A DNA stretch of 20,913 bases from a virus, in the IMG/VR virus record IMGVR_UViG_3300048836_000593, positions 1-20,913 of that record; one strand, written 5' to 3'. Of the stretch, positions 1 to 19,798 are shown in pieces. Made by a program: the position numbers and the translations under genes. Position 1 is the stretch's first letter. Every line of letters starts with the position of its first letter. The notes under the pieces were generated by a model. The model worked only from the letters and a program-made list of their open reading frames with translations, was not told the origin of the DNA and made no database searches.

Positions 1-1768
1 CGCCCAGGCCATAGTGGCCCATAAGACCACTCGCGCCGTCGCTTCCACACGCCACAGCTGACTTGCCTTGCCCGCTGTCGCCTACGATGAGCGACTCCAC
101 CCATCCCTTAATTGGCTTGGGCGAATCGAACGTTATAAGCAGTGGTGAATACAATGTTAAGTCGACAACTAGATGCGTATCCCGACGTTTGAATATACGT
201 GTTATATTGGTCTCTAAATCGTCGTATAATGCATCCAAGCGAACTTGTAGTGATTCTATAGTCCATTGATCTGGCCTGAACATTTCAAGCGAGTCTAGGT
301 CGGTTGGAACATATGTTGACAGCGCATCCTTGGTCGTATTGTAATTACTGATTAGGAGAGTCGACTGTTGCGTCTTTGGATGAGGATGCATTCGACCAAC
401 GAGATCATAGCTCTCATTCAAGTCAATGCCTTCACCAATACAAATCGCTGGCTGCATCGCACGATCGCTTGCGCGATTCACAATGTCAAGCTGTGGGCTG
501 ATGCGCGTCTCTTCAGCGTTGTAATAGTCTTGCACGTTGAACATGCACGTCTTACACGTATGCGGAATACCTAAGCCCAGCATGATCGCTTCGCGTTGCG
601 CATTCTGATGAGCAGCATACATGTTAAGAAGCGCCGGCGACTCAGGGTGAATCGTCCACTCACTCTTGCCCACAAGCATCACAGGGCAGATCGCGCATTC
701 CTTCTGATCCTTCTCGCATAAGACTTCAACGCTACGTGGGATCACGTAAGGCGCTTCACCAATCGCAGTGACGACTGCTTTAAGCCTGACGCGACGCCCC
801 GCCATCTTTGCGTTTGTGGCGGACATCAAGTCAGTGTCTTCTGGCTCAGTGTCGTCGCTTGTTATGACTCGACTTGCAGGTGTCCACTCGACTGCTGATT
901 CAATAAGCGGGTGTAAGTCGCCTTTCTCTTGCCCAATGAAATCGTTGATGTCTCCCTTAGGATAACGGTCCTCATCAAGTGGCAGCACCACATCACTTAA
1001 GAATGTGACTGTGCGATAGAGTAATGAGCAGATCTTAGCCGCTGCTGAGCGACCGCCTGCGTCAATGTCCATGATCGTGTAGACTTCTTTACCCATGAAT
1101 CGCTGCAAGAGTTCAGGGACCCACGCGCCTTCGCCGGCTGTGATACACACCGCACCGATGCCGTATGCGTTCAATTGCTTAGCCGCGGCGATGGCTTTCA
1201 TCTCGCCGCCAGTAAACACTAAGCGATCATACTTAAGCTGCTCTATAGGGAAGAGACGAGGCTTGCTATGACCCTTTGTGTTCTTCATCTTCTCAGGGCC
1301 AGGCGCGCCTGGAAGATACAAGCGTATGTTAACGATGAACCCATTCTCATTGGGAATAGGAATCGTGATGCGGCCGCCCTTTTCACCAAGGCGATATTGT
1401 CGAATCAATTCATCATCAATGCCACGAGCATACAACTGCTTAAGCAATGGCTTCGCATGCCAGATCGCTTGGTGATAGCGCTCAATGACGTCAGTATTGA
1501 TCGTCTTAGAGAGATCAAGATTGTATCGCTGGGCGAGCTCTAAGTAGACTAAGTTGCGTGGCTGCTCTAAGTAGCGAGCCATGAATGATATGAAGTCGCC
1601 GCTCGCCTCGCATTGTGGGACCTTACAATTGAACAGTCGCTTCTCGACATTCACATTGCAGGACGGATGCTTGTCCTCATGAAAGGGACATAGACATCTC
1701 ACCTCGTCTTCGCCCGCCCACTCGTAGGCAATGCCCAGACGTTCAAGCTCCGCCAAAACGTTGATCAT
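1..1768 (-). CDS. DNA primase fused to AAA+/MCM-like helicase, C-terminus beyond window
   Basis: I translated this frame by hand from 1768 to the left edge; it stays open for 589 codons with no stop, so the gene is 3'-truncated by the window. Residues 25-53 form a CHC2-type zinc finger (CLCPFH at 25-30, Cys37, Cys48, Cys53). The CxxH pair matches DnaG, although the second pair is spaced x4 rather than x2. A TOPRIM domain follows, with the acidic residues in GGEMKA (Glu189) and MDIDAGG (Asp234, Asp236), then KGDINDF near 271. Residues about 316-430 look like an OB fold carrying Cys351, Cys358, Cys361, Cys405 and Cys408. GDSGQGKS at 563-570 is a Walker A motif preceded by a GWVESLIV strand, as in MCM/AAA+ proteins. 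Primer synthesis plus strand unwinding at the phage fork is the inferred role. The start is uncertain: ATG at 1825 would add 19 residues but lies inside a terminator hairpin, and neither start has a clear Shine-Dalgarno. Confidence 0.85.
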   Translation of the reverse strand, partial: MINVLAELERLGIAYEWAGEDEVRCLCPFHEDKHPSCNVNVEKRLFNCKVPQCEASGDFISFMARYLEQPRNLVYLELAQRYNLDLSKTINTDVIERYHQAIWHAKPLLKQLYARGIDDELIRQYRLGEKGGRITIPIPNENGFIVNIRLYLPGAPGPEKMKNTKGHSKPRLFPIEQLKYDRLVFTGGEMKAIAAAKQLNAYGIGAVCITAGEGAWVPELLQRFMGKEVYTIMDIDAGGRSAAAKICSLLYRTVTFLSDVVLPLDEDRYPKGDINDFIGQEKGDLHPLIESAVEWTPASRVITSDDTEPEDTDLMSATNAKMAGRRVRLKAVVTAIGEAPYVIPRSVEVLCEKDQKECAICPVMLVGKSEWTIHPESPALLNMYAAHQNAQREAIMLGLGIPHTCKTCMFNVQDYYNAEETRISPQLDIVNRASDRAMQPAICIGEGIDLNESYDLVGRMHPHPKTQQSTLLISNYNTTKDALSTYVPTDLDSLEMFRPDQWTIESLQVRLDALYDDLETNITRIFKRRDTHLVVDLTLYSPLLITFDSPKPIKGWVESLIVGDSGQGKSAVACGSDGASGLMGHYGLG

Positions 1769-1853: not shown

Positions 1854-2714
1854 CTAGAACTCTTTCGTTGAGGAGACCTCAACGTCAGCTTCATCATCGT
1901 GATCAACGCGAATGAGCTGCTTGTGATACGCGTCCTTGTATTCTTCATGAATCGGCTTAAGTGACTCATAAAGATCAGGAGGCGTCCACGGCGCGACACC
2001 GCTGTCGGCAGACGGATTGGTTACGTCAACGCCGAACCACTCGCCGTCGTTATTCGTGCGTTCATGCACCATCCCTTCGAACACACAGCCGAAGATATCA
2101 GCCTTGCGTAACTTGATGAGGCTTGCGAAGTTACTCCCTGCGCGATGCTCACCACGTGAGAACGACATCACCATGGGAATTCCTGCAAGCTGGTTCTCAC
2201 CAATGATCATCACCACGAAGTTCAGATGTTCCACGTGGCGAATGATGATAGGCCGACCTTGATCATCCATCGGCTTTTCTGGGTATGGTTCGATACGCAA
2301 CTCTTTCGTGCGCGCCTTAGCGACGAGAGGGTTGTCGCGATCAAGCGTACGATCGCGAATCATCGGGATACCATCGATGCCCCGTGGATTCCACGTGCAC
2401 CATTCAGGGAAGAAGAAGATGGGAACGAAGTGGAATGGAACGCCCACGCCGGCGGAACGGCCTTGTGCATTCTTCTGCATGTCGGCAACGAGCACGCGCT
2501 GTGGCATGCTGATGACGCACCCAGGATCGAATTGCGAAAGCAACTCGTTGTTCGACTGCTTCTGAACAACCTTGATGCGCGGCGGCACGATGAACTCGTT
2601 GAGGTTATCAACGCCTTGCAGTTCATCAGGCGCCTTGCGCAAATACTCTGGAACGCTCAACGCGCTCGCAGGCGGTTGTTCGATCATCTCTTGCTCTTGC
2701 GATTTCTTAGCCAT
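1854..2714 (-). CDS. Phage replication-region protein, candidate ssDNA-binding protein
   Basis: This is a 286-aa protein when started at ATG 2714, which has TAAGGA about ten bases upstream; a longer reading to 2831 would overlap the previous gene with low-complexity residues. It has no motif I can assign with certainty. Features seen are VPPRIKVVQ near residue 43, an aromatic-rich stretch PFHFVPIFFFPEWCTWNPRG around 93-112, and a strongly acidic C-terminus (DHDDEADVEV) ending in Phe. Phage and bacterial ssDNA-binding proteins commonly end in an acidic tail with a terminal aromatic residue that recruits replication partners. With the helicase upstream and the primase downstream, an SSB-like role is a reasonable inference. 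It remains hypothetical; another replication accessory role is possible. Confidence 0.8.
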   Translation of the reverse strand: MAKKSQEQEMIEQPPASALSVPEYLRKAPDELQGVDNLNEFIVPPRIKVVQKQSNNELLSQFDPGCVISMPQRVLVADMQKNAQGRSAGVGVPFHFVPIFFFPEWCTWNPRGIDGIPMIRDRTLDRDNPLVAKARTKELRIEPYPEKPMDDQGRPIIIRHVEHLNFVVMIIGENQLAGIPMVMSFSRGEHRAGSNFASLIKLRKADIFGCVFEGMVHERTNNDGEWFGVDVTNPSADSGVAPWTPPDLYESLKPIHEEYKDAYHKQLIRVDHDDEADVEVSSTKEF

Positions 2715-2751
2715 CGTTCGATTGTCCTTACGTTGATGAAATGAATCCTCC

Positions 2752-3318
2752 TTAGCTTGCGACTTGTTCGTCGGGCTCCTTCTTCCCACGTGTGACGCAA
2801 GTGTACTCTGGGTAAGTCGATTCCGGATCAATGCCAGGAGGCAGAGGTTGGCCTTGTGACATCAATTCCGAAAGGTGGGCAACGAGCCCCGGCCAATGCG
2901 GACGAACGATCTCAAACTCTTCGTCACCCGCATAGAGTTCAGGTGGAACATTCAAGAAGCGCATCAGTGCGTTGTACTTCTCAGGGTCACGCCTCTTCTT
3001 TGGGATCACAGCGATCAATCGAACCTTGGGTGTGCACGTCGCATACTCAGTTCGAATGGGGCCGCCCTCGCCTGCTTGCACGTAAAGCAATGCAGTGATC
3101 TTTTGATAGACGTCGTGCGTCTTCTTGACTTCGTTGTGAATGTCCTCTGTGTACTTAATGATCTCACGGAGGCCATACGTGCGGTTCGCCAATTCTTCGA
3201 GATTGGCTGTCGAATTGACGTCCGCTTTCAGCGCGGAGACTAGCTTGTAAATCTCCTCGTGTAACTTCTTGGCTGTCTTATACAGCCTTGCGATTTCCGG
3301 ATGCATGTTCCTGGCCAT
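2752..3318 (-). CDS. Hypothetical protein of replication cluster, helical N-terminus
   Basis: ATG at 3318 has AGGA eight bases upstream and gives 188 aa; a TTG two codons earlier is less likely. Residues 1-80 are Lys/Glu-rich and predicted helical (EIARLYKTAKKLHEEIYKL and following), possibly coiled coil. The second half is a mixed segment with PEKYNALMRFLNVPPELY and a Pro-rich end. It overlaps the preceding gene by 41 bases and ends 37 bases before the next start, so it belongs to the same transcription unit as the helicase. I do not recognise the family and propose no function beyond membership in the replication cluster. Confidence 0.8.
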   Translation of the reverse strand: MARNMHPEIARLYKTAKKLHEEIYKLVSALKADVNSTANLEELANRTYGLREIIKYTEDIHNEVKKTHDVYQKITALLYVQAGEGGPIRTEYATCTPKVRLIAVIPKKRRDPEKYNALMRFLNVPPELYAGDEEFEIVRPHWPGLVAHLSELMSQGQPLPPGIDPESTYPEYTCVTRGKKEPDEQVAS

Positions 3319-3643
3319 ATGCAATGTCCTTCATGGAGTATGCGACATAGTCGCGGGATGGGGCGTCGTAAAACAATACGCTGATCTCACCAAAGCGTTG
3401 CACCAGCGTGCCAATCATTATCGTCACAGGGATCATGTGACCCGCTATGACTATGTGATCGTTTGCAGGATCATACGCGTGTGCGTCTAGTGCTGCAAGG
3501 ATCTCTTGACGGAATTCATCTGACCAGATACTCGCACGCCTGCTCCCGCGAGGGAATAGCACAAGAACAGGCCCGTGCTTTGATGCAGGGGCCGTATTCA
3601 CGTTTGTGCATGGCTCGATCAGAAAGCATCGAGGCTTACTCAT
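3278..3643 (-). CDS. Small hypothetical protein downstream of helicase
   Basis: The ATG at 3643 overlaps the helicase stop codon (GATGAGTAA), a common translational-coupling arrangement, and gives 121 aa. Visible features are a beta-strand-like VLVLFPRGSRR segment near 28, AILAALDAH-type helix, and a hydrophobic HIVIAGHMIPVTIMIG stretch near 65-80. The alternation of short hydrophobic strands and helices could be a small alpha/beta fold, but no catalytic motif is obvious. It is not a convincing membrane protein. I do not recognise the family. Confidence 0.75.
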   Translation of the reverse strand: MSKPRCFLIEPCTNVNTAPASKHGPVLVLFPRGSRRASIWSDEFRQEILAALDAHAYDPANDHIVIAGHMIPVTIMIGTLVQRFGEISVLFYDAPSRDYVAYSMKDIAYGQEHASGNRKAV

Positions 3644-5657
3644 CAATGAATCCTCTCAACACGTTACGCAGAATTTCGCGGACGTCCGCAATGGACGCGG
3701 CGTTGATCCGCTTCTTCAATACGCGGGCGCGGATCTCTTCGTCGATCGTTCGTGGGATGCACAAGTCAGTAATGCGAACTGGCTCGCGTGTGCCACGACG
3801 ATGCGCGCGGTCTTCTGACTGACTTCGCTTGATGGACGACCAATCCTGTGAGTAATAGATCACGTGATTGCAATTGGACGGATAGTCATCGCCCTCGCCT
3901 GGCGGGTAGCCAAGCAGGTTCAGCCCCGTTCCGCCTGCAGCTGGATTGCCAACAAACACCTTGATGTCTGCGTTGTGATTGAACTCATATTCAGCGATAG
4001 CGCGATCGTCTTCTTTCGTGCCACCATAGAACGTAACGCATCCGATTCCTTCTTGCTCAAGGCGAGCACGGATCGACTTGATGTCTTGAATCCAATTCGC
4101 CCAAACGATTGTCTTGTCGTTGGGTCCCTTTTCCTTCAAGATCTCAATGAGCGCTTCGATCTTCGGGTTAGGATCGAAACGATCCACACCACCTTCAGCG
4201 ACAACTTCGCCTTCTTCGTTGTACGTTGGATTCCATTTGTAAAATCCCGACGTGATCTGCGCAAGACGAAGCAACTTAGTGAGGATGTTGTTGACAGCGA
4301 TCGTCTTGTTCGCTGCACCATCAAGATCGGACTTGATCTCTGCGGCGAGGTACTTGCTTAACGCTTCGTACACTTCCTCTTGTTCCTTCGTCATCTCAAC
4401 TTCGATGACGTCGTATACTTTATCTGGCAGGTCAGGCAACACGTCCTTCTTCTCAACGATGAAGCTAAGACGCGCAAGTCGTTCTTGCATGAATGGTAGA
4501 TTCTGCAAGGCCACAAGAGCTTGACGTCCTTCTTGATTCTTCTCGAACACACCATAGAAAGAACGGAAGTTTTTCCACGACATGAATCCACTGAACCCTT
4601 TGCCCAAGAACTCAAACTGAGCATAAGTGTCAAGTGGCGTGTTGGCAATCGGTGTGCCTGTGAGCAGCATCCGCTTGTCAGCGAGTTCACGCAACAAGAA
4701 AGCGTGCTTGGCGCGCTGTGTCTCTGGCCACTTGATGTAGTGACCTTCGTCAAGAACGGCAACGTCCCAGCGAATCGCTTTCAGAACCTTCCACATGCGA
4801 ACCATCATCTCGTAGCCAATGACAATGGTGATGCGTTCATCTTGTGCAGTGAGCGCGTCGATCAATTGCTTGATCCGTTCGATCTCGCCACCACGCAAGA
4901 TTGTCACTTTGCCTTTCGTCAGCGAGAACTTCTCAAACTCTGACGACCAGTTCAAGCGCACATTGTTTGGACAAACGATTAGCGAGCGATGAGCGCGATT
5001 CTCTTTCGCCTTCACGCGCGGTTGATCATTGTCGATTACGCTGATGACCACAGGCGTCTTGCCCGTGCCTTGCTCCATGAACAACGCATAGGCCTCGCTG
5101 TCAAGCGCGTTCTTCGCTGCAACCTGTTGATAGAACGCCAAGCGAAGGTCAGGATCGGGATGCAAGCGAAGTCCTGACACATCAGGAACTTCCTCACCCG
5201 CATGACCCGACGCTTCGATGATCGTCGCTTCATGCATCCCGTAAATTTCTTGCTCACGGCTAAGATGAAGCAGATTCTTGAACTTGGCGAAGTTGTCAGC
5301 GTTACGACCTTGCTGAACGAATGACACCAGCAAGTAGTCGTAGACGATCTTCGCGTCCGACTCGAAGTCGATCAACTCGCGCGGCACAACGCCGTCGATT
5401 ATATTAGCGGTGATATCAGTGCAGGGCAATTCCCAGCGGCAATCACCGTCGAGTTCTTTGCGCTCGGGAAAGCGCGCCCAGAGAGTTCGTTGCATGTGCA
5501 GCGAAGGCGACACGCGACGATTGTCGTAAGGATTCACGCGGTAGGCAGTGCACACAAATCGCTCGCCATCTTTGTCGAGCGCGATGTGCAATTTGTCTGC
5601 TTTGTCAAAGCGAAGTGGCGTGAAGAGTTTCGCTGTGGCGTGTGTAAGAGCTTTCAT
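3636..5657 (-). CDS. SNF2-family DEAD/DEAH-like helicase (superfamily 2)
   Basis: This 673-aa protein is an ATP-driven DNA translocase of superfamily 2. Motif I is MEQGTGKT at 194-201, motif II is DEGH at 303-306, motif III is LTGTP at 332-336, motif V is GGTGLNL near 575-581, and motif VI is QSEDRAHRRGT at 613-623. The QxxDRxxRxGT form of motif VI is typical of SNF2 proteins. About 170 residues precede the helicase core and contain no domain I can name. Phages often use such proteins in replication, recombination or fork remodelling, so this is the probable unwinding or remodelling enzyme for the cluster. It is the first gene after a consensus promoter and has a strong Shine-Dalgarno. A DNA-repair or host-takeover role cannot be excluded. 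Confidence 0.95.
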   Translation of the reverse strand: MKALTHATAKLFTPLRFDKADKLHIALDKDGERFVCTAYRVNPYDNRRVSPSLHMQRTLWARFPERKELDGDCRWELPCTDITANIIDGVVPRELIDFESDAKIVYDYLLVSFVQQGRNADNFAKFKNLLHLSREQEIYGMHEATIIEASGHAGEEVPDVSGLRLHPDPDLRLAFYQQVAAKNALDSEAYALFMEQGTGKTPVVISVIDNDQPRVKAKENRAHRSLIVCPNNVRLNWSSEFEKFSLTKGKVTILRGGEIERIKQLIDALTAQDERITIVIGYEMMVRMWKVLKAIRWDVAVLDEGHYIKWPETQRAKHAFLLRELADKRMLLTGTPIANTPLDTYAQFEFLGKGFSGFMSWKNFRSFYGVFEKNQEGRQALVALQNLPFMQERLARLSFIVEKKDVLPDLPDKVYDVIEVEMTKEQEEVYEALSKYLAAEIKSDLDGAANKTIAVNNILTKLLRLAQITSGFYKWNPTYNEEGEVVAEGGVDRFDPNPKIEALIEILKEKGPNDKTIVWANWIQDIKSIRARLEQEGIGCVTFYGGTKEDDRAIAEYEFNHNADIKVFVGNPAAGGTGLNLLGYPPGEGDDYPSNCNHVIYYSQDWSSIKRSQSEDRAHRRGTREPVRITDLCIPRTIDEEIRARVLKKRINAASIADVREILRNVLRGFIDE

Positions 5658-5752: not shown

Positions 5753-7066
5753 TTATTTTGAAGAAAAATGTCGCTTGTGCGGTTGCACGTAGTTAAGCGC
5801 AGCTTTTATCTGTGCATCACTGACTTCAAGTTTCAAGTGTTCGACGATGGCTCGCATCGGCGCAGCGGGATCATCGATCATCTCATCATATTGAACAGTC
5901 AAGTGAGGCGTCGTCTTCAAGAAACGATTCTTCTCCTGCCATAAGAATCCCTGTAGATTCTCGAGTTTTTGATGATCGTGGCGTTTACCCGAACGTTTCA
6001 CCAACGAAGCGATCGAGTGTTCCAGCGAACGCTGCGCGTGAATCACGTGTAAGCGTGCTTTGCAGATTTCCGTGAAGTATGGGGCGAAAACGCAGAAGTG
6101 AGGATACTTCGCGCCACACAGCGATTCTGTTGTGTCCCACTGCTTTTTCACAAACGTAGCGAATTGCGATTTTATGTTGTGAGGCGTCATACGCAAGCGC
6201 ATCTGAGGAAATGGCATCGCGCGCTCACATATGCGTAAGATCTCAATTGCCTCGCCACCTCCGTCGCTTTCGCATCCGCCGAACTTGTCGCCCATGTACA
6301 CACCAAGTTTTCGCAACACATTCGCAAGAAGCGAACTCCCGCTGCGATGTAACCCAACGATGATCACATAGTCGCGACCTGTCGCACTCACTTCGCGGTC
6401 TTCAGGAATGACCACGTCCTTCCCATTCCAGAACCGCTGTGGCACAATCTTTTGTGAGACAGTGGAATGCCCTTCGTTTTGTCCAATGAGCCAGTGCGTC
6501 GGCGCATACGCTTTCATCTTACCCGACATGATAAGATGGCCCATGTGATGATCAATATGATTCGCATGACGCCACACCTTCGTGTCGTTAAGATGACGAT
6601 AGACTTCCTGCAAACCCTTTCCTCTTAGTGCCCACGCGTGAGTACGATTCACGTTGTAAGGTTTCACAACGAGATCGTTCAGTGGGACAGGCTTCTGCTT
6701 CCCTTGGCACAAGTGCTGACCACCCAAGTACAAGATCTCCCAATCTTGCGGCACAGCAGCCATGAACGCGTTCACACGCTGCGTGAATTCGGGAACACAC
6801 AGCGCGTCGTCCTCCATTAAGAGAACGCTCTTAGTGCCATCCATCAAGCATTGCTCAATGATGTTAAGATGCGAGCGATAACAACCCCACGCGCCGCCAC
6901 CCATGCGCCACCACGTGGGATGCTTGCACTTCTTGCCATCAATAGCATCATAGCGCTCGGGTTGCGCGAATGGCCAATCGCTTGGCAAGTTGTCGATGAA
7001 ACGAGTCCAGCGATCAGGCGTGCGGGAGAGCGACACGCATACTACTTTTTCGAACATGTACCACAT
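5753..7066 (-). CDS. Glycosyltransferase family 25 fused to sulfotransferase
   Basis: The 437-aa protein has two enzyme domains. Residues about 4-205 match the GT25 (LPS-type glycosyltransferase) pattern: KVVCVSLSRTPDRW at 7-20, GCYRSH at 61-66, the LLMEDDA strand with EDD at 85-87, and IDHHMG at 171-176. Residues about 231-437 look like a P-loop-type sulfotransferase: YVIIVGLHRSGSS ends at 245 and resembles the 5'-phosphosulfate loop that binds PAPS, and HAQRSLEHSIASLVKRSGKR at 343-362 resembles the 3'-phosphate-binding region. The likely substrate is a cell-surface or virion glycan. ATG 7066 follows AAGAAAGG closely; ATG 7057 is an alternative. The gene overlaps the Cys-rich gene by 25 bases and is the last gene before the replication promoter. 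Substrates and donor sugar cannot be read from sequence. Confidence 0.88.
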   Translation of the reverse strand: MWYMFEKVVCVSLSRTPDRWTRFIDNLPSDWPFAQPERYDAIDGKKCKHPTWWRMGGGAWGCYRSHLNIIEQCLMDGTKSVLLMEDDALCVPEFTQRVNAFMAAVPQDWEILYLGGQHLCQGKQKPVPLNDLVVKPYNVNRTHAWALRGKGLQEVYRHLNDTKVWRHANHIDHHMGHLIMSGKMKAYAPTHWLIGQNEGHSTVSQKIVPQRFWNGKDVVIPEDREVSATGRDYVIIVGLHRSGSSLLANVLRKLGVYMGDKFGGCESDGGGEAIEILRICERAMPFPQMRLRMTPHNIKSQFATFVKKQWDTTESLCGAKYPHFCVFAPYFTEICKARLHVIHAQRSLEHSIASLVKRSGKRHDHQKLENLQGFLWQEKNRFLKTTPHLTVQYDEMIDDPAAPMRAIVEHLKLEVSDAQIKAALNYVQPHKRHFSSK

Positions 7067-7329: not shown

Positions 7330-8161
7330 CGCACTCTTCCCACAAGCAACTTGCGTCGACTTCATCACAGTAGAAGTTGATTCTACTTGGGCCATGACGC
7401 AAGCTGCCTGAGCTATTGTTTGCTGATGCGCCGATTCCCCACACGGTGTCACTGCCTGATGGACGCGTCATGCAATGCGCGACGCCTGTGTTCTGATCTT
7501 TGGTGACTCGCAGCTCTGTGTCAGTTAACACAAGCTGCCCAATGAAGACGCCTTGATCAGCGCCCACGCCCGAGTCAACGTCTGATGTGTATACGAGCGA
7601 CCCATCAACATGAATCGTCAGCGTGACTATTGATAGGACGCCTGCGACGCGCGATGTAATTGTCCATCGTGCTTCAATGTTTCCTGGTGCGAATATCGAA
7701 ACCGAATCACCAATGCTGTCACCGATGAACGATGACATGATGAACGTGCCATTGCTGTGACCTAGGTTGAACTTCGCAGTTCCATCGCCTTCGTACCAAT
7801 TCGCCGGTGATATATCCGTGCGATACACCATGTCACCAGCGACAACGTCAAACACTGGGCGTGGATCAAAATCATCTTGCAGGTCAAGTGCCGGCGAGCA
7901 CTCAAGAAACGCGGCGCCCGCCGCTACCACTGTGCGTCCATCAATGGTCACATCAGCGACGCCTGTCGCATCGTGAAAGAGCACGCATCCTTCCACAGGC
8001 ACACACGGACACACATCGCACTTGATGACGCCCACGTCATCGCGAAGAACACCACGCCCATCATGCCAGATTTGTAAGGGCATCTGCGAACACCCACTAA
8101 GAACTACTAGCGCTACCAGGTAAATTGCACTCGCTAAGCGGGACTTTAACAATGCAGCCAT
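7322..8161 (-). CDS. Phage-encoded lipoprotein with LamG/jelly-roll-like domain
   Basis: ATG at 8161 has GGAGAA seven bases upstream and gives 279 aa. The N-terminus is a classical lipoprotein signal: basic MAALLKSR, a hydrophobic helix, then lipobox LSGC with Cys24 as the lipidated residue. A Cys-rich linker (CDVCPC) follows, then a beta-rich region of roughly 200 residues resembling concanavalin/LamG folds. It overlaps the preceding tail gene by 65 bases. A lipid-anchored envelope protein encoded late by a phage could mask the receptor or block superinfection, but that is inference. A host-acquired surface-binding protein is an alternative. An upstream ATG would bury the signal peptide and is less likely. 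Confidence 0.82.
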   Translation of the reverse strand: MAALLKSRLASAIYLVALVVLSGCSQMPLQIWHDGRGVLRDDVGVIKCDVCPCVPVEGCVLFHDATGVADVTIDGRTVVAAGAAFLECSPALDLQDDFDPRPVFDVVAGDMVYRTDISPANWYEGDGTAKFNLGHSNGTFIMSSFIGDSIGDSVSIFAPGNIEARWTITSRVAGVLSIVTLTIHVDGSLVYTSDVDSGVGADQGVFIGQLVLTDTELRVTKDQNTGVAHCMTRPSGSDTVWGIGASANNSSGSLRHGPSRINFYCDEVDASCLWEECDE

Positions 8162-9137
8162 TTGAGTCTTCTCCAAATAAGTACACAACGTTTGCGACAT
8201 CAGCAACAGGGATGTCAGCTATTGGCCTACCTTCAATTGTATCAAGGCAGTCAATAGACGATGAAGAAGAAATACTTGGAGGCGACGAACTGCTGCTGGG
8301 CGGTGAGGAACTGCTTGACGATGGCGGACTACTGCTTGACGATGATGGCGACGAGCTACTTGATGATGACAGTGGAGCGCACGGCATCTCCACAACATAC
8401 CCAACGCCTAAGACTTGCTCTGACTTGACGATTACGCCTGACAGTATCTCTTCGTCGCAAATGTTGTACACAAGCGTGAGCCATGAACCGCCCGCTCCCG
8501 GCTTAGGCGCCGCGCGAAGCGTGCCACCATCATCGCGGTACATAACTCGCACAAGGCCTGAGCCCGGCACGTTATTCACTCGTGGCGAGATGCCGCCCAC
8601 AGTCACACCAACAATGGCGTGTGGCTCAACACCTTTGATCGCCCATATGTAACCGCTCTCTGATTGCCCAACGCAAGTCAACCCGAATCTGTTGCTCGTT
8701 ACGCTGAATGAATTCCACGGCCCGCACGGCATCCCAGTAACACCAGCGCCTTGCAGTTTCACTGGGTCCCACAATCCAATGGGACGAGCGAATCCTTTCG
8801 ATCCCACCTCTACTGCAAGTGAGTCGTTCGTAAACAGCGCTAATGGCGATCCGTTGTAACTATCTCCAATGCGACTAGCATTGATGTTGTATGGTGAGGT
8901 ATCGCCGCTGCCGGTGGTGATACCGAACACAGAATATGGTGGAATCTCTTCGTTACACGACACATGAATATATCGCGGTGATGTCTTGATCTTCTCAGAG
9001 ATCGCTGTGAGGTCAGTGCTCGAGTATCCATTATTGAATCGCGCTTTCGACTGCGCATTCCGGATGAGGGCATTCACCTCCTCATGAGTCAGGAACTCTC
9101 CACGCTTCTTCTCTTTAAGTAATTCAATGGGCAACAT
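8097..9137 (-). CDS. Tail-associated protein with Ser/Pro tract linker
   Basis: The 346-aa protein starts in a TAATG overlap with the gene before it. Residues 1-50 are helical and charged. Residues about 50-250 are a beta-rich, Gly-rich region typical of tail tip or fibre proteins, with few recognisable motifs. Residues 256-295 are almost only Ser and Pro, arranged as runs of five to seven Ser separated by one or two Pro, and probably act as an extended flexible or glycosylated linker. A short C-terminal domain (about 296-346, DTIEGRPIADIPVADVANVV) follows. Position after the tape measure and tail protein suggests a virion tail component. The specific function is unknown. Confidence 0.82.
   Translation of the reverse strand: MLPIELLKEKKRGEFLTHEEVNALIRNAQSKARFNNGYSSTDLTAISEKIKTSPRYIHVSCNEEIPPYSVFGITTGSGDTSPYNINASRIGDSYNGSPLALFTNDSLAVEVGSKGFARPIGLWDPVKLQGAGVTGMPCGPWNSFSVTSNRFGLTCVGQSESGYIWAIKGVEPHAIVGVTVGGISPRVNNVPGSGLVRVMYRDDGGTLRAAPKPGAGGSWLTLVYNICDEEILSGVIVKSEQVLGVGYVVEMPCAPLSSSSSSSPSSSSSSPPSSSSSSPPSSSSSPPSISSSSSIDCLDTIEGRPIADIPVADVANVVYLFGEDSNGCIVKVPLSECNLPGSASSS
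8253..8372 (-). repeat. Ser/Pro codon repeat tract
   Basis: About 120 bases encode forty residues that are nearly all Ser and Pro. On the plus strand the repeated units read as variants of GACGAACTGCTGCTG and GACGATGATGGC. The unit number could change by slippage. Confidence 0.8.
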
Positions 9138-17525: not shown

Positions 17526-18234
17526 CAGTTACAACTTGTGGGAAGGTGGCACGAGCATGCGCAGGCATGTTAAGACGAATCGCGCCACGCTTAACGCGAT
17601 AAGCCCACTGCATCACTTCTTCTTTGTGAGCAGACACATTGTTAAGCGCACTCTCCGAATCCTCGATGCCGCGTGACTCGTATAAGAACACGCCTGCGAG
17701 ACGCGCAGTCGCATCAACGATTGAATTGTCGTACGGCATCTCAAACGGCAGCGTGTACGGCCCACCTTGCAGGAGCTCGTCAAGCTTACGCGATGCACGG
17801 TGTAATGCCCACGCCTTACGACGTCGAATCGTCGCGTCTTCATTATCGTTGTCTAAGTCAGCCCACTTGTTGACATTCGACCGACCAAAGACATCGTAGA
17901 GTGCGCGGCAGTTAGCGTAGACGTCCGGCCCGAAGAAAGGCAGGTTAGCAACCGCAGTATACGTCTCCTCGATTGACGCCGCATACGGTGTGACTCCGCG
18001 TATCCACGACGCCTCCATTGTAACGAGATAATCGTCGTCCTCGATTAGACCCGCGGTTGCTGGAAGAACGTACTTGTAGACGCCATCAGAGTCCTCTACG
18101 TACTCCATTGCTTCATCGTCGATGATGCCATAGATACTGATGAGAACTGTCGCGTCGTTTACGTAGCCTTCTTCGTCCTTAAGGCCAGACAAGAAAAGCG
18201 TGTTCACTTGGCCAACGTATAGCTCACACCCCAT
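17515..18234 (-). CDS. Connector-like protein with N-terminal Ig-like domain
   Basis: The 239-aa protein has two parts. Residues 1-90 are beta-rich (VNTLFLSGLKDEEGYVNDATVLISIYG) and look like a BppU-type or Ig-like domain. Residues about 105-230 are helical (CRALYDVFGRSNVNKWADL, then ASRKLDELLQGGPYTLPFEM and IVDATARLAGVFLYESRG). The second part resembles DUF1320/gp36-type head-tail connectors, which carry a helical bundle with a LxxLAxxxALYxL core. It overlaps the genes on both sides by 11 bases. In Mu-like order such a connector comes after the capsid; here it precedes the gpF-like gene. The family call is moderately sure. Confidence 0.78.
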   Translation of the reverse strand: MGCELYVGQVNTLFLSGLKDEEGYVNDATVLISIYGIIDDEAMEYVEDSDGVYKYVLPATAGLIEDDDYLVTMEASWIRGVTPYAASIEETYTAVANLPFFGPDVYANCRALYDVFGRSNVNKWADLDNDNEDATIRRRKAWALHRASRKLDELLQGGPYTLPFEMPYDNSIVDATARLAGVFLYESRGIEDSESALNNVSAHKEEVMQWAYRVKRGAIRLNMPAHARATFPQVVTDES

Positions 18235-19798
18235 CTTGCTGGCCTCCTAATCGCTGTTGCGCTTGCTGCATTGAAATGTTAACTTGAGACGACCCGTTCA
18301 CTGCAGGCTGCTCGATTAGAATTATACCTTCAGCGTGAACTTGAATTGTCACAGGCCCAACAAACGTTGCGCTCGCGCTGAGTATCTGAGCTGCCGCAAT
18401 CAGTGCAGCTACACCTGGCGCATCGAAGTTTGCGCTTGCATCAAGTATTTGTGCTGTGACTGTTAGGGCGCCCACCCCATCAAAGATAACTGTGCCACTA
18501 GCTGCAAGCGTTTGACTCGCAACCAGCAACGTCGCTTCGCCACTTGAAGTTGGCGCGATGTGCGTTGCGCTTACGTTTAGTATTTGCGCACTGACAGTAA
18601 GTGTGCCCTCCCCAGCGTATACGGGCACATCGAACTCAGCACTCGCGCTAAGTAACTGGCTCGTAACCACGAGTGTAGCCGTAGCTTGAAAGATTGCAGT
18701 AGCATGCGACGCGCTGGCGGTTAAAGTTTGCTGAGTGGCGCTTAAGCTGGCTTCACTTGAGTAAACCGGCGCGGTGAATGTCGCGCTGGCGGCGAGCTGG
18801 GCGGCGGCGGCCGTGAGGTTCGCTGTGGCCGTATAGACCGGATCGTCAAAGGCCGCGGAAGCGGCCAAGGTTTGCGAACTCGCGGCGAGCGTTGCGTCAC
18901 CGGTGTAGCTGGGCGCAACATGCGACGCGCTCGCGGCCAGGGTTTGCGAAGTCGCTGTCAGTGCTGCCGCGGCGGTGAAGGTGCCGGCGTCGAATGTCGC
19001 TGATGCGGCCAGCGTTTGGCTAGTCGCGGCCAGCGCGGCCGAAGCAGTGTATGTCGGCGGCGTGTGCGAGGCGGAAGCTGCTAGTGATTGCGCGGTGGCG
19101 GTCAGTGTGGCGGTACCGGTCTTGGTGCCAGCGGCGAAGGTCGCGGAGGCGGAGAGGGTTTGCGAACTGGCGACCAGCGCGCCGGTGGCGGTGAAGGTGG
19201 TGACTTCCTCCCAAGTCACCACCAAACTCGCCGGAGCATACCCGCTCGTGTTCTCTATGGCGGCTATCCCAAAGCCTGCGCCGCTGACCGCGCTATCGCT
19301 GCGCACCCGCAAGAGAATCGAGTCGTCGAACCCAGGGCGGTTCACGACCTCTTGAATCGGGCCGCTAATATCCACCGTCGCCACTCGTTGGCCAGTTACA
19401 TGCACACCCACGTCGCCAGTCGCGGCGGCCGTTGTCCATGCCATCGAGGTAACTGCGCCGCCGGTTGGCATAGCGGCATCGTCTTCGTCGGCGGCATCGA
19501 TAGTGTAGGTGTCGCCGGTGAAATCAAAGTCGCCGTTCTGCGTGTAGTGGAGTACGGCGGACGTAATCGTCGCGCCTTGGGGAATCGAGACAGTGAACCT
19601 CAAGAGGCCGGCGTAGAAGTCGATACCAGCGTAGCCGACGTTGAGAGCTTCACCTGCATCGTATTCGGAGCCAACGAACTCGACGTAATCGGCATCGTCG
19701 GCTCCTACCAGAATGTGCCAGGTGGGCGAATACACCAACTCATGCACGCCGCCGCGTCCACCGTAAGCCAGTCCGAAAATGTCTGGAGAAGCAGGCAT
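18224..19798 (-). CDS. Surface/adhesin-like protein, DNRLRE-type domain plus 12 repeats
   Basis: The 524-aa protein starts 4 bases after the previous stop. Residues 40-197 form a beta-rich domain (RFTVSIPQGATITSAVLHYTQ, then SGPIQEVVNRPGFDDSILLRV) that resembles the DNRLRE-type domain of surface and adhesin proteins. Residues 201-483 hold twelve tandem repeats of about 24 residues with a core of L-x-A-x-x-Q-x-L-x-A-S-A. A short C-terminal tail follows. Such repeats may form an extended stalk. I infer a virion surface or tail-fibre-like role, but the gene lies upstream of the head genes, not near the tail tip. There is a marked GC break inside the repeats. Confidence 0.85.
   Translation of the reverse strand: MPASPDIFGLAYGGRGGVHELVYSPTWHILVGADDADYVEFVGSEYDAGEALNVGYAGIDFYAGLLRFTVSIPQGATITSAVLHYTQNGDFDFTGDTYTIDAADEDDAAMPTGGAVTSMAWTTAAATGDVGVHVTGQRVATVDISGPIQEVVNRPGFDDSILLRVRSDSAVSGAGFGIAAIENTSGYAPASLVVTWEEVTTFTATGALVASSQTLSASATFAAGTKTGTATLTATAQSLAASASHTPPTYTASAALAATSQTLAASATFDAGTFTAAAALTATSQTLAASASHVAPSYTGDATLAASSQTLAASAAFDDPVYTATANLTAAAAQLAASATFTAPVYSSEASLSATQQTLTASASHATAIFQATATLVVTSQLLSASAEFDVPVYAGEGTLTVSAQILNVSATHIAPTSSGEATLLVASQTLAASGTVIFDGVGALTVTAQILDASANFDAPGVAALIAAAQILSASATFVGPVTIQVHAEGIILIEQPAVNGSSQVNISMQQAQQRLGGQQDGV
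18350..19198 (-). repeat. Twelve tandem 24-residue (about 72-base) protein repeats
   Basis: Unit consensus is near TATATLTATSQTLAASATFD with a short variable end. The first unit has 26 residues, units two to nine have 24, and the last three have 23, 21 and about 21. The start of the array is GC-rich and the end is not, with a change near 18,770. Confidence 0.85.

Follow-up and report, generated by a model that had tools for sequence, protein, structure and literature searches.

A 20,913-base virus fragment from IMG/VR (the whole stretch is referred to here as the window) carries a gene whose product is very probably a tailed phage's replicative helicase-primase, in which a DnaG-type primase and a complete MCM are joined in a single chain. 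In archaea and eukaryotes, MCM forms the ring that unwinds DNA and is found with an AEP primase; in bacteria, DnaG is attached to DnaB. The helicase-primase activity of the fusion is one that we infer from its family.

The reading frame and its primase half

The 5′ 589 codons of the gene lie on the minus strand at positions 2-1768, starting with an ATG at 1768 (an alternative ATG is present at 1825), and the frame is open at the contig edge. A sequence-only reading of this DNA had described an unbroken run of 589 codons leaving the edge, and this was borne out by translation of the minus strand over 2-1768, in which no stop was encountered; the probability of 589 open codons at this base composition is ∼2e-13. 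CHC2, TOPRIM, a cysteine cluster and the P-loop GDSGQGKS, which the same reading had assigned to this one chain, were each located where it had placed them. The window extends only 19 residues past the P-loop and, with the AAA+ domain of this phage almost wholly unsequenced, we infer the integrity of the motor from homologues. The window protein alone gave no Pfam match to MCM, its gene being truncated shortly after the P-loop.

A complete gene is present in a related virus contig (L002), where it encodes 949 amino acids in one frame; the best tblastn segment is 55% identical and the match spans window residues 2-589. Profile searching of IMG/VR left 79 loci, of which 74 have the gene as a single frame of about 890-983 amino acids and the other five a shorter gene of 542-835 amino acids. 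A stop within a few codons of the contig edge, which had been considered as a contrary outcome, was not seen in the homologues, where the frame goes on for ∼360 residues.

The chain begins with a CHC2 zinc-binding domain (residues 23-88, positions 1505-1702; this and all the following features of the gene are on the minus strand), with ligands C27, H30, C48 and C53, matched by Pfam PF01807 at 5.7e-11, which is above the curated cut-off, and these ligands are kept in 58-64 of 65 homologues. It is followed by a TOPRIM/RNA-polymerase domain of the DnaG type (approximately residues 106-295, positions 884-1453), identified by the PHROG family phrog_47 ('DNA primase', matching residues 3-279 at 2e-27), by DnaG in PDB profile searches and by Foldseek. 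The acidic motif of this domain, TGGEMKA (residues 186-192, positions 1193-1213), contains the catalytic glutamate, E189, with GE present in 65/65 homologues, and the DxD motif MDIDAGG (residues 233-239, positions 1052-1072) contains D234 and D236, both conserved in the homologues (in homologue numbering, D240 in 65/65 and D242 in 64/65). A further TOPRIM motif, GDINDF, is found at residues 272-277.

A seven-sequence profile gave DnaG as the best PDB match (3e-29), with MCM2 at 1.1e-10 for the same seven chains, and the AlphaFold (AF2) model of the truncated window protein (pLDDT 87.4) matched Aquifex and other DnaG structures in Foldseek. No match to DNA_primase_S (AEP) was found in the window protein or in the fusion homologues, CHC2 and TOPRIM being present instead. 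The C-terminal DnaB-binding domain of DnaG is absent and is replaced by the MCM part; the protein is therefore not a cellular DnaG. About 290 INPHARED records of Vibrio phages (∼114 kb) also match and, among the matches listed, do so only over the primase half (residues 3-285), indicating that this primase is combined with other partners as well.

Genomic setting and probable replicative role

The left end of the window is a replication module, transcribed leftward, with the fusion gene last. Immediately upstream of the fusion is a Pam3 gp34-like gene (positions 1854-2714; Pfam PF23977), which lies beside it in 36 of the loci searched, and further upstream are a conserved neighbour of unknown function (2752-3318; beside the fusion in 22 loci), a Pam3 gp32-like gene (3278-3646; Pfam PF23992; beside the fusion in 16 loci) and an SNF2/SF2 DNA helicase gene (3636-5657; Pfam SNF2-rel_dom 2.1e-33; match in 53 loci), all on the minus strand. 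In many distant contigs, too, these four genes (1854-5657) lie close to the fusion. The gp34-like family, for which the PDB yielded no relative, may belong to the replication machinery. In relatives, genes for an SNF2 helicase, an NTP-PPase, a DNA polymerase and nucleotide metabolism are located near the fusion.

The right-hand part of the window encodes a tailed-phage major capsid protein E, a tape-measure protein, a neck protein and a head morphogenesis protein. Between the structural and the replication genes sits an ORF (5753-7066, minus strand) with glycosyltransferase-25-like (Pfam 2.7e-6) and sulfotransferase-like (2.2e-8) parts in one chain. Long Ser/Pro runs (SSSSSSSPSSSSSSPPSSSSSSPP) are found in the ORF at 8097-9137 (minus strand), and the ORF at 18224-19798 (minus strand) contains many near-copies of a short unit like ALTATSQTLAASATFDAPxYTA.

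DnaB was the sole alternative helicase searched for, and DnaB_C was matched in none of 15 phage records (seven GenBank records were searched whole), MCM being found in 14 of the same 15; the bacterial genomes used as a positive control for the DnaB search all matched. An own replicative helicase-primase is the simplest account of phages that are without DnaB and have polymerase genes nearby. The chain could instead comprise an MCM-like ATPase for recombination, origin melting or packaging rather than fork unwinding, together with a primase for repair, which would suit the adjoining SNF2 helicase and the RecA-like and exonuclease genes seen in relatives. We consider this unlikely, since the phages examined are without DnaB, a DNA polymerase gene is nearby in many relatives, and a fused primase with intact catalytic residues fits a fork enzyme better.

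The MCM half

The Cys-rich, OB-like segment that follows the primase is most likely the N-terminal tier of an MCM with a predicted zinc site, since the truncated window model also finds MCM structures in Foldseek (alignments of about 250-400 columns). This beta-rich domain would span approximately residues 310-500 (positions 269-841) and is homologous to the equivalent AEP-MCM region. Its predicted zinc ligands are C351, C358 and C361 (VLCEKDQKECAICPV, positions 680-724) and, as the fourth, C405 (IPHTCKTC, positions 545-568), and these four are invariant across 45 homologues. Five cysteines had been counted in this segment; the cluster is indeed there, but between residues 310 and 562 it has six members (351, 358, 361, 405, 408 and 443), the five presumably being those from 351 to 408.

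The Walker A motif GDSGQGKS of the MCM AAA+ domain occupies residues 563-570 (positions 59-82), the rest of the domain lying beyond the contig edge, and the Walker A residues (G569, D570 and K575 in homologue numbering) are invariant in 65 homologues. Two features count against the proposed helicase-primase. The motif of the fusion ends in GKS, whereas the Walker A of cellular MCMs usually has AKS, and directly after it, where the P-loop helix begins, the window protein has a six-residue Gly-rich insertion, GSDGAS (positions 29-46). Similar inserts are present only in L021 and L074, lineages in different subclades, and the remaining homologues read like GKSETA..LM.HYGLG. With similar insertions in two other contigs, an assembly error at the edge is an unlikely source of GSDGAS.

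The remainder of the motor was examined in the homologues, whose C-terminal 640-residue profile gave MCMs as the 58 best of 60 PDB matches, with SsoMCM first at 1.9e-11, the two others being ClpX and a winged-helix protein (0.41). The profile alignment with SsoMCM covers Walker A (GDxxxGKS), Walker B (hhDE/hEE), sensor 1 (SNP) and the arginine finger, where the phage EDIRRFD is aligned with the MCM SRFD motif, and the key AAA+ motif residues of the homologues align with archaeal MCM motifs. Walker A, Walker B, the sensor 1 Asn, the RFD arginine finger and basic residues at the sensor-2 position are each found in 58-65 of 65 homologues, the window itself containing Walker A only. Pfam MCM was matched in 27 of 30 homologues.

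The AlphaFold (AF2) model of full-length L002 (pLDDT 91.5, pTM 0.72) gave the same result, its 50 best Foldseek matches in the PDB (3e-24 downward, over 552-827 columns) comprising only MCM or MCM-containing complexes. Two strand pairs of the model (604-609/612-617 and 652-655/661-664) lie, by secondary structure only, at the places expected for the helix-2 insert and pre-sensor-1 hairpins. In the model, residues 854-932 form a C-terminal winged helix, with helices and then a two-strand pattern, and Pfam matches to HTH, MarR and TrmB were found in several homologues. The sequence-only reading had proposed an MCM-like AAA+ domain in place of the usual DnaB-type partner, looking for support to profile matches with MCM OB/AAA+ domains, arginine-finger and sensor motifs, and a structure prediction; the proposal is supported by the C-terminal profile, the motifs and the Foldseek matches of the homologues.

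The primase could also be followed by an AAA+ ATPase from a different clade (SF3/D5, MoxR or ClpX-like) that merely resembles MCM, which would accord with the AAA_5 matches in 6 of 30 homologues, the appearance of ClpX at 0.33 in the PDB profile and a MoxR-like protein in the Foldseek search of the viral library. This is very improbable, as MCM is ahead by many orders of magnitude in both sequence and structure, and the match extends to the winged-helix tail and to the N-terminal zinc/OB-like domain, which lies outside the AAA+ part. Moreover, an archaeal MCM was matched in profile-profile comparison (97.7% probability, 1.4e-12, 425 columns), and the model strands E604-617 and E652-664 fit the MCM hairpin places, at the level of secondary structure only.

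Least credible of all is a chain like T7 gp4 or Twinkle, in which the hexameric helicase behind the DnaG-type primase would be of the RecA/DnaB type: the N-terminal half matches the T7 gp4 primase (1nui, 1.4e-7) and gp4-like primase-helicase fusions are the usual phage arrangement, but the C-terminal profile had no DnaB or RecA match in the PDB at E values up to 1, DnaB_C was found in 0/15 records, the best structural matches are to MCMs, and the arginine finger, sensor 1 and zinc-OB are of the MCM type. A DnaB/RecA helicase was thus rejected for the homologues by the DnaB_C search, the C-terminal PDB profile and Foldseek, and the RecA/DnaB fold downstream of the P-loop that would have contradicted the earlier proposal was not seen in them.

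Distribution, relatives and proposed mechanism

The same arrangement, primase then MCM in one ORF, was found in Microbacterium phage Krampus (gp47) and other Microbacterium phages, Arthrobacter phage Wollypog (gp50), Bacillus phage BSP7, Weizmannia phage Youna2 and Caudoviricetes ctIqW946, with a more distant fusion pair in Paenibacillus, including Paenibacillus phage SV21. The fusions of cultured or sequenced phages share ∼22-45% identity with the window protein or P0002, and CHC2 is below Pfam detection in Krampus and Wollypog. A TOPRIM primase joined to an MCM had been put forward as without known precedent; the fusion is real but is no lone oddity, as dozens of sequenced phages carry it. 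A single-sequence scan of genome-collection contigs gave no fusion match, and a search with a closer alignment revealed one alphaproteobacterial MAG contig in the collection that carries the fusion architecture.

The fusion is already in the databases, merely unlabelled, its public names being 'DNA primase', 'DNA primase/helicase' or similar. Misleading labels, 'DNA directed DNA polymerase' (MW202657) and 'DNA primase small subunit' (Youna2), were noted for the genes at 7983-10829 in L003 and 7938-10955 in L006. The Youna2 protein has CHC2 and TOPRIM, without AEP.

The closest relatives of the fusion are the AEP-MCM proteins of the BcMCM kind (phrog_18685; Bacillus cereus prophages and Bacillus phage vB_BboS-125). 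The entire non-primase part is homologous between the two (hhalign Prob 100, E 3e-106, 621 columns) in a comparison with vB_BboS-125 and its IMG/VR relatives, to which BcMCM itself is linked by its described architecture. Zinc cysteines, AAA+ motifs, a C-terminal tail and an N-terminal primase in a single chain are common to both. The primase of AEP-MCM, however, is an archaeo-eukaryotic AEP (Pfam DNA_primase_S), whereas that of the fusion is an unrelated bacterial CHC2-TOPRIM; consequently, two non-homologous primases are borne by one MCM chassis. A tree of the MCM region separates the two primase types by a branch, with a very long archaeal outgroup branch, weak support and the root unplaced. 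BcMCM is reported to have 3′-5′ helicase, primase and polymerase activities (PMC4538821), and in bacteria MCM helicases are known from phages, to which plasmids have been added, with MCM fused to AEP primases (Kazlauskas et al. 2018, PMC5862659).

The fusion is like SsoMCM and MCM2-7 in its OB-like N-tier with a zinc site, its AAA+ arginine finger and sensors, and its winged-helix tail, but is highly divergent from archaeal and eukaryotic MCM (about 11-15% identity in structural alignment) and has a primase fused in front. As in T7 gp4 and Twinkle, a single chain contains a CHC2-TOPRIM primase ahead of a ring helicase; the gp4 helicase, in contrast, is of the RecA/DnaB type and runs along the lagging strand in the 5′→3′ direction, whereas that of the fusion is of the MCM type and is expected to move 3′→5′ on the leading strand.

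T7 gp4 and DnaB travel 5′→3′ on the lagging strand, with the primase acting on the strand leaving the ring. MCM travels 3′→5′ on the leading strand with its N-tier first, and Pol α on the CMG helicase is placed where the lagging strand is excluded. In the mechanism proposed here, the chain would run from the CHC2 and TOPRIM primase through the zinc-bearing OB-like N-tier and the AAA+ motor to the winged-helix tail. Six such chains would, as expected from the family, form an MCM ring unwinding 3′→5′ as in BcMCM and archaeal MCM, and up to six DnaG primase modules at the N-tier may make RNA primers. Because MCM rides on the leading strand, opposite to T7 gp4 and DnaB, the primases would be located where the excluded lagging strand exits the ring, like Pol α-primase on the CMG helicase.

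A description of a DnaG-type primase fused to MCM was not found in the open-access literature, which yielded only AEP-MCM, and an earlier mention may exist. On balance, we favor the view that a widespread and as yet undescribed lineage of phages has swapped the primase carried by its MCM, with an AEP in the Bacillus prophages and a bacterial DnaG here. With a bacterial primase placed on the leading face of a ring of the archaeal/eukaryotic type, unwinding and priming would be coupled with a polarity opposite to that of DnaB and T7. The fusion protein thus combines one half of the bacterial priming system with one half of the archaeal/eukaryotic one, and suggests that two non-homologous primases are exchangeable on one helicase. 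Cultured Microbacterium and Bacillus phages would offer a one-polypeptide system for studying priming coupled to a leading-strand ring. The annotation can also be corrected, in that many phage 'DNA primase' genes may encode the phage's own MCM helicase.
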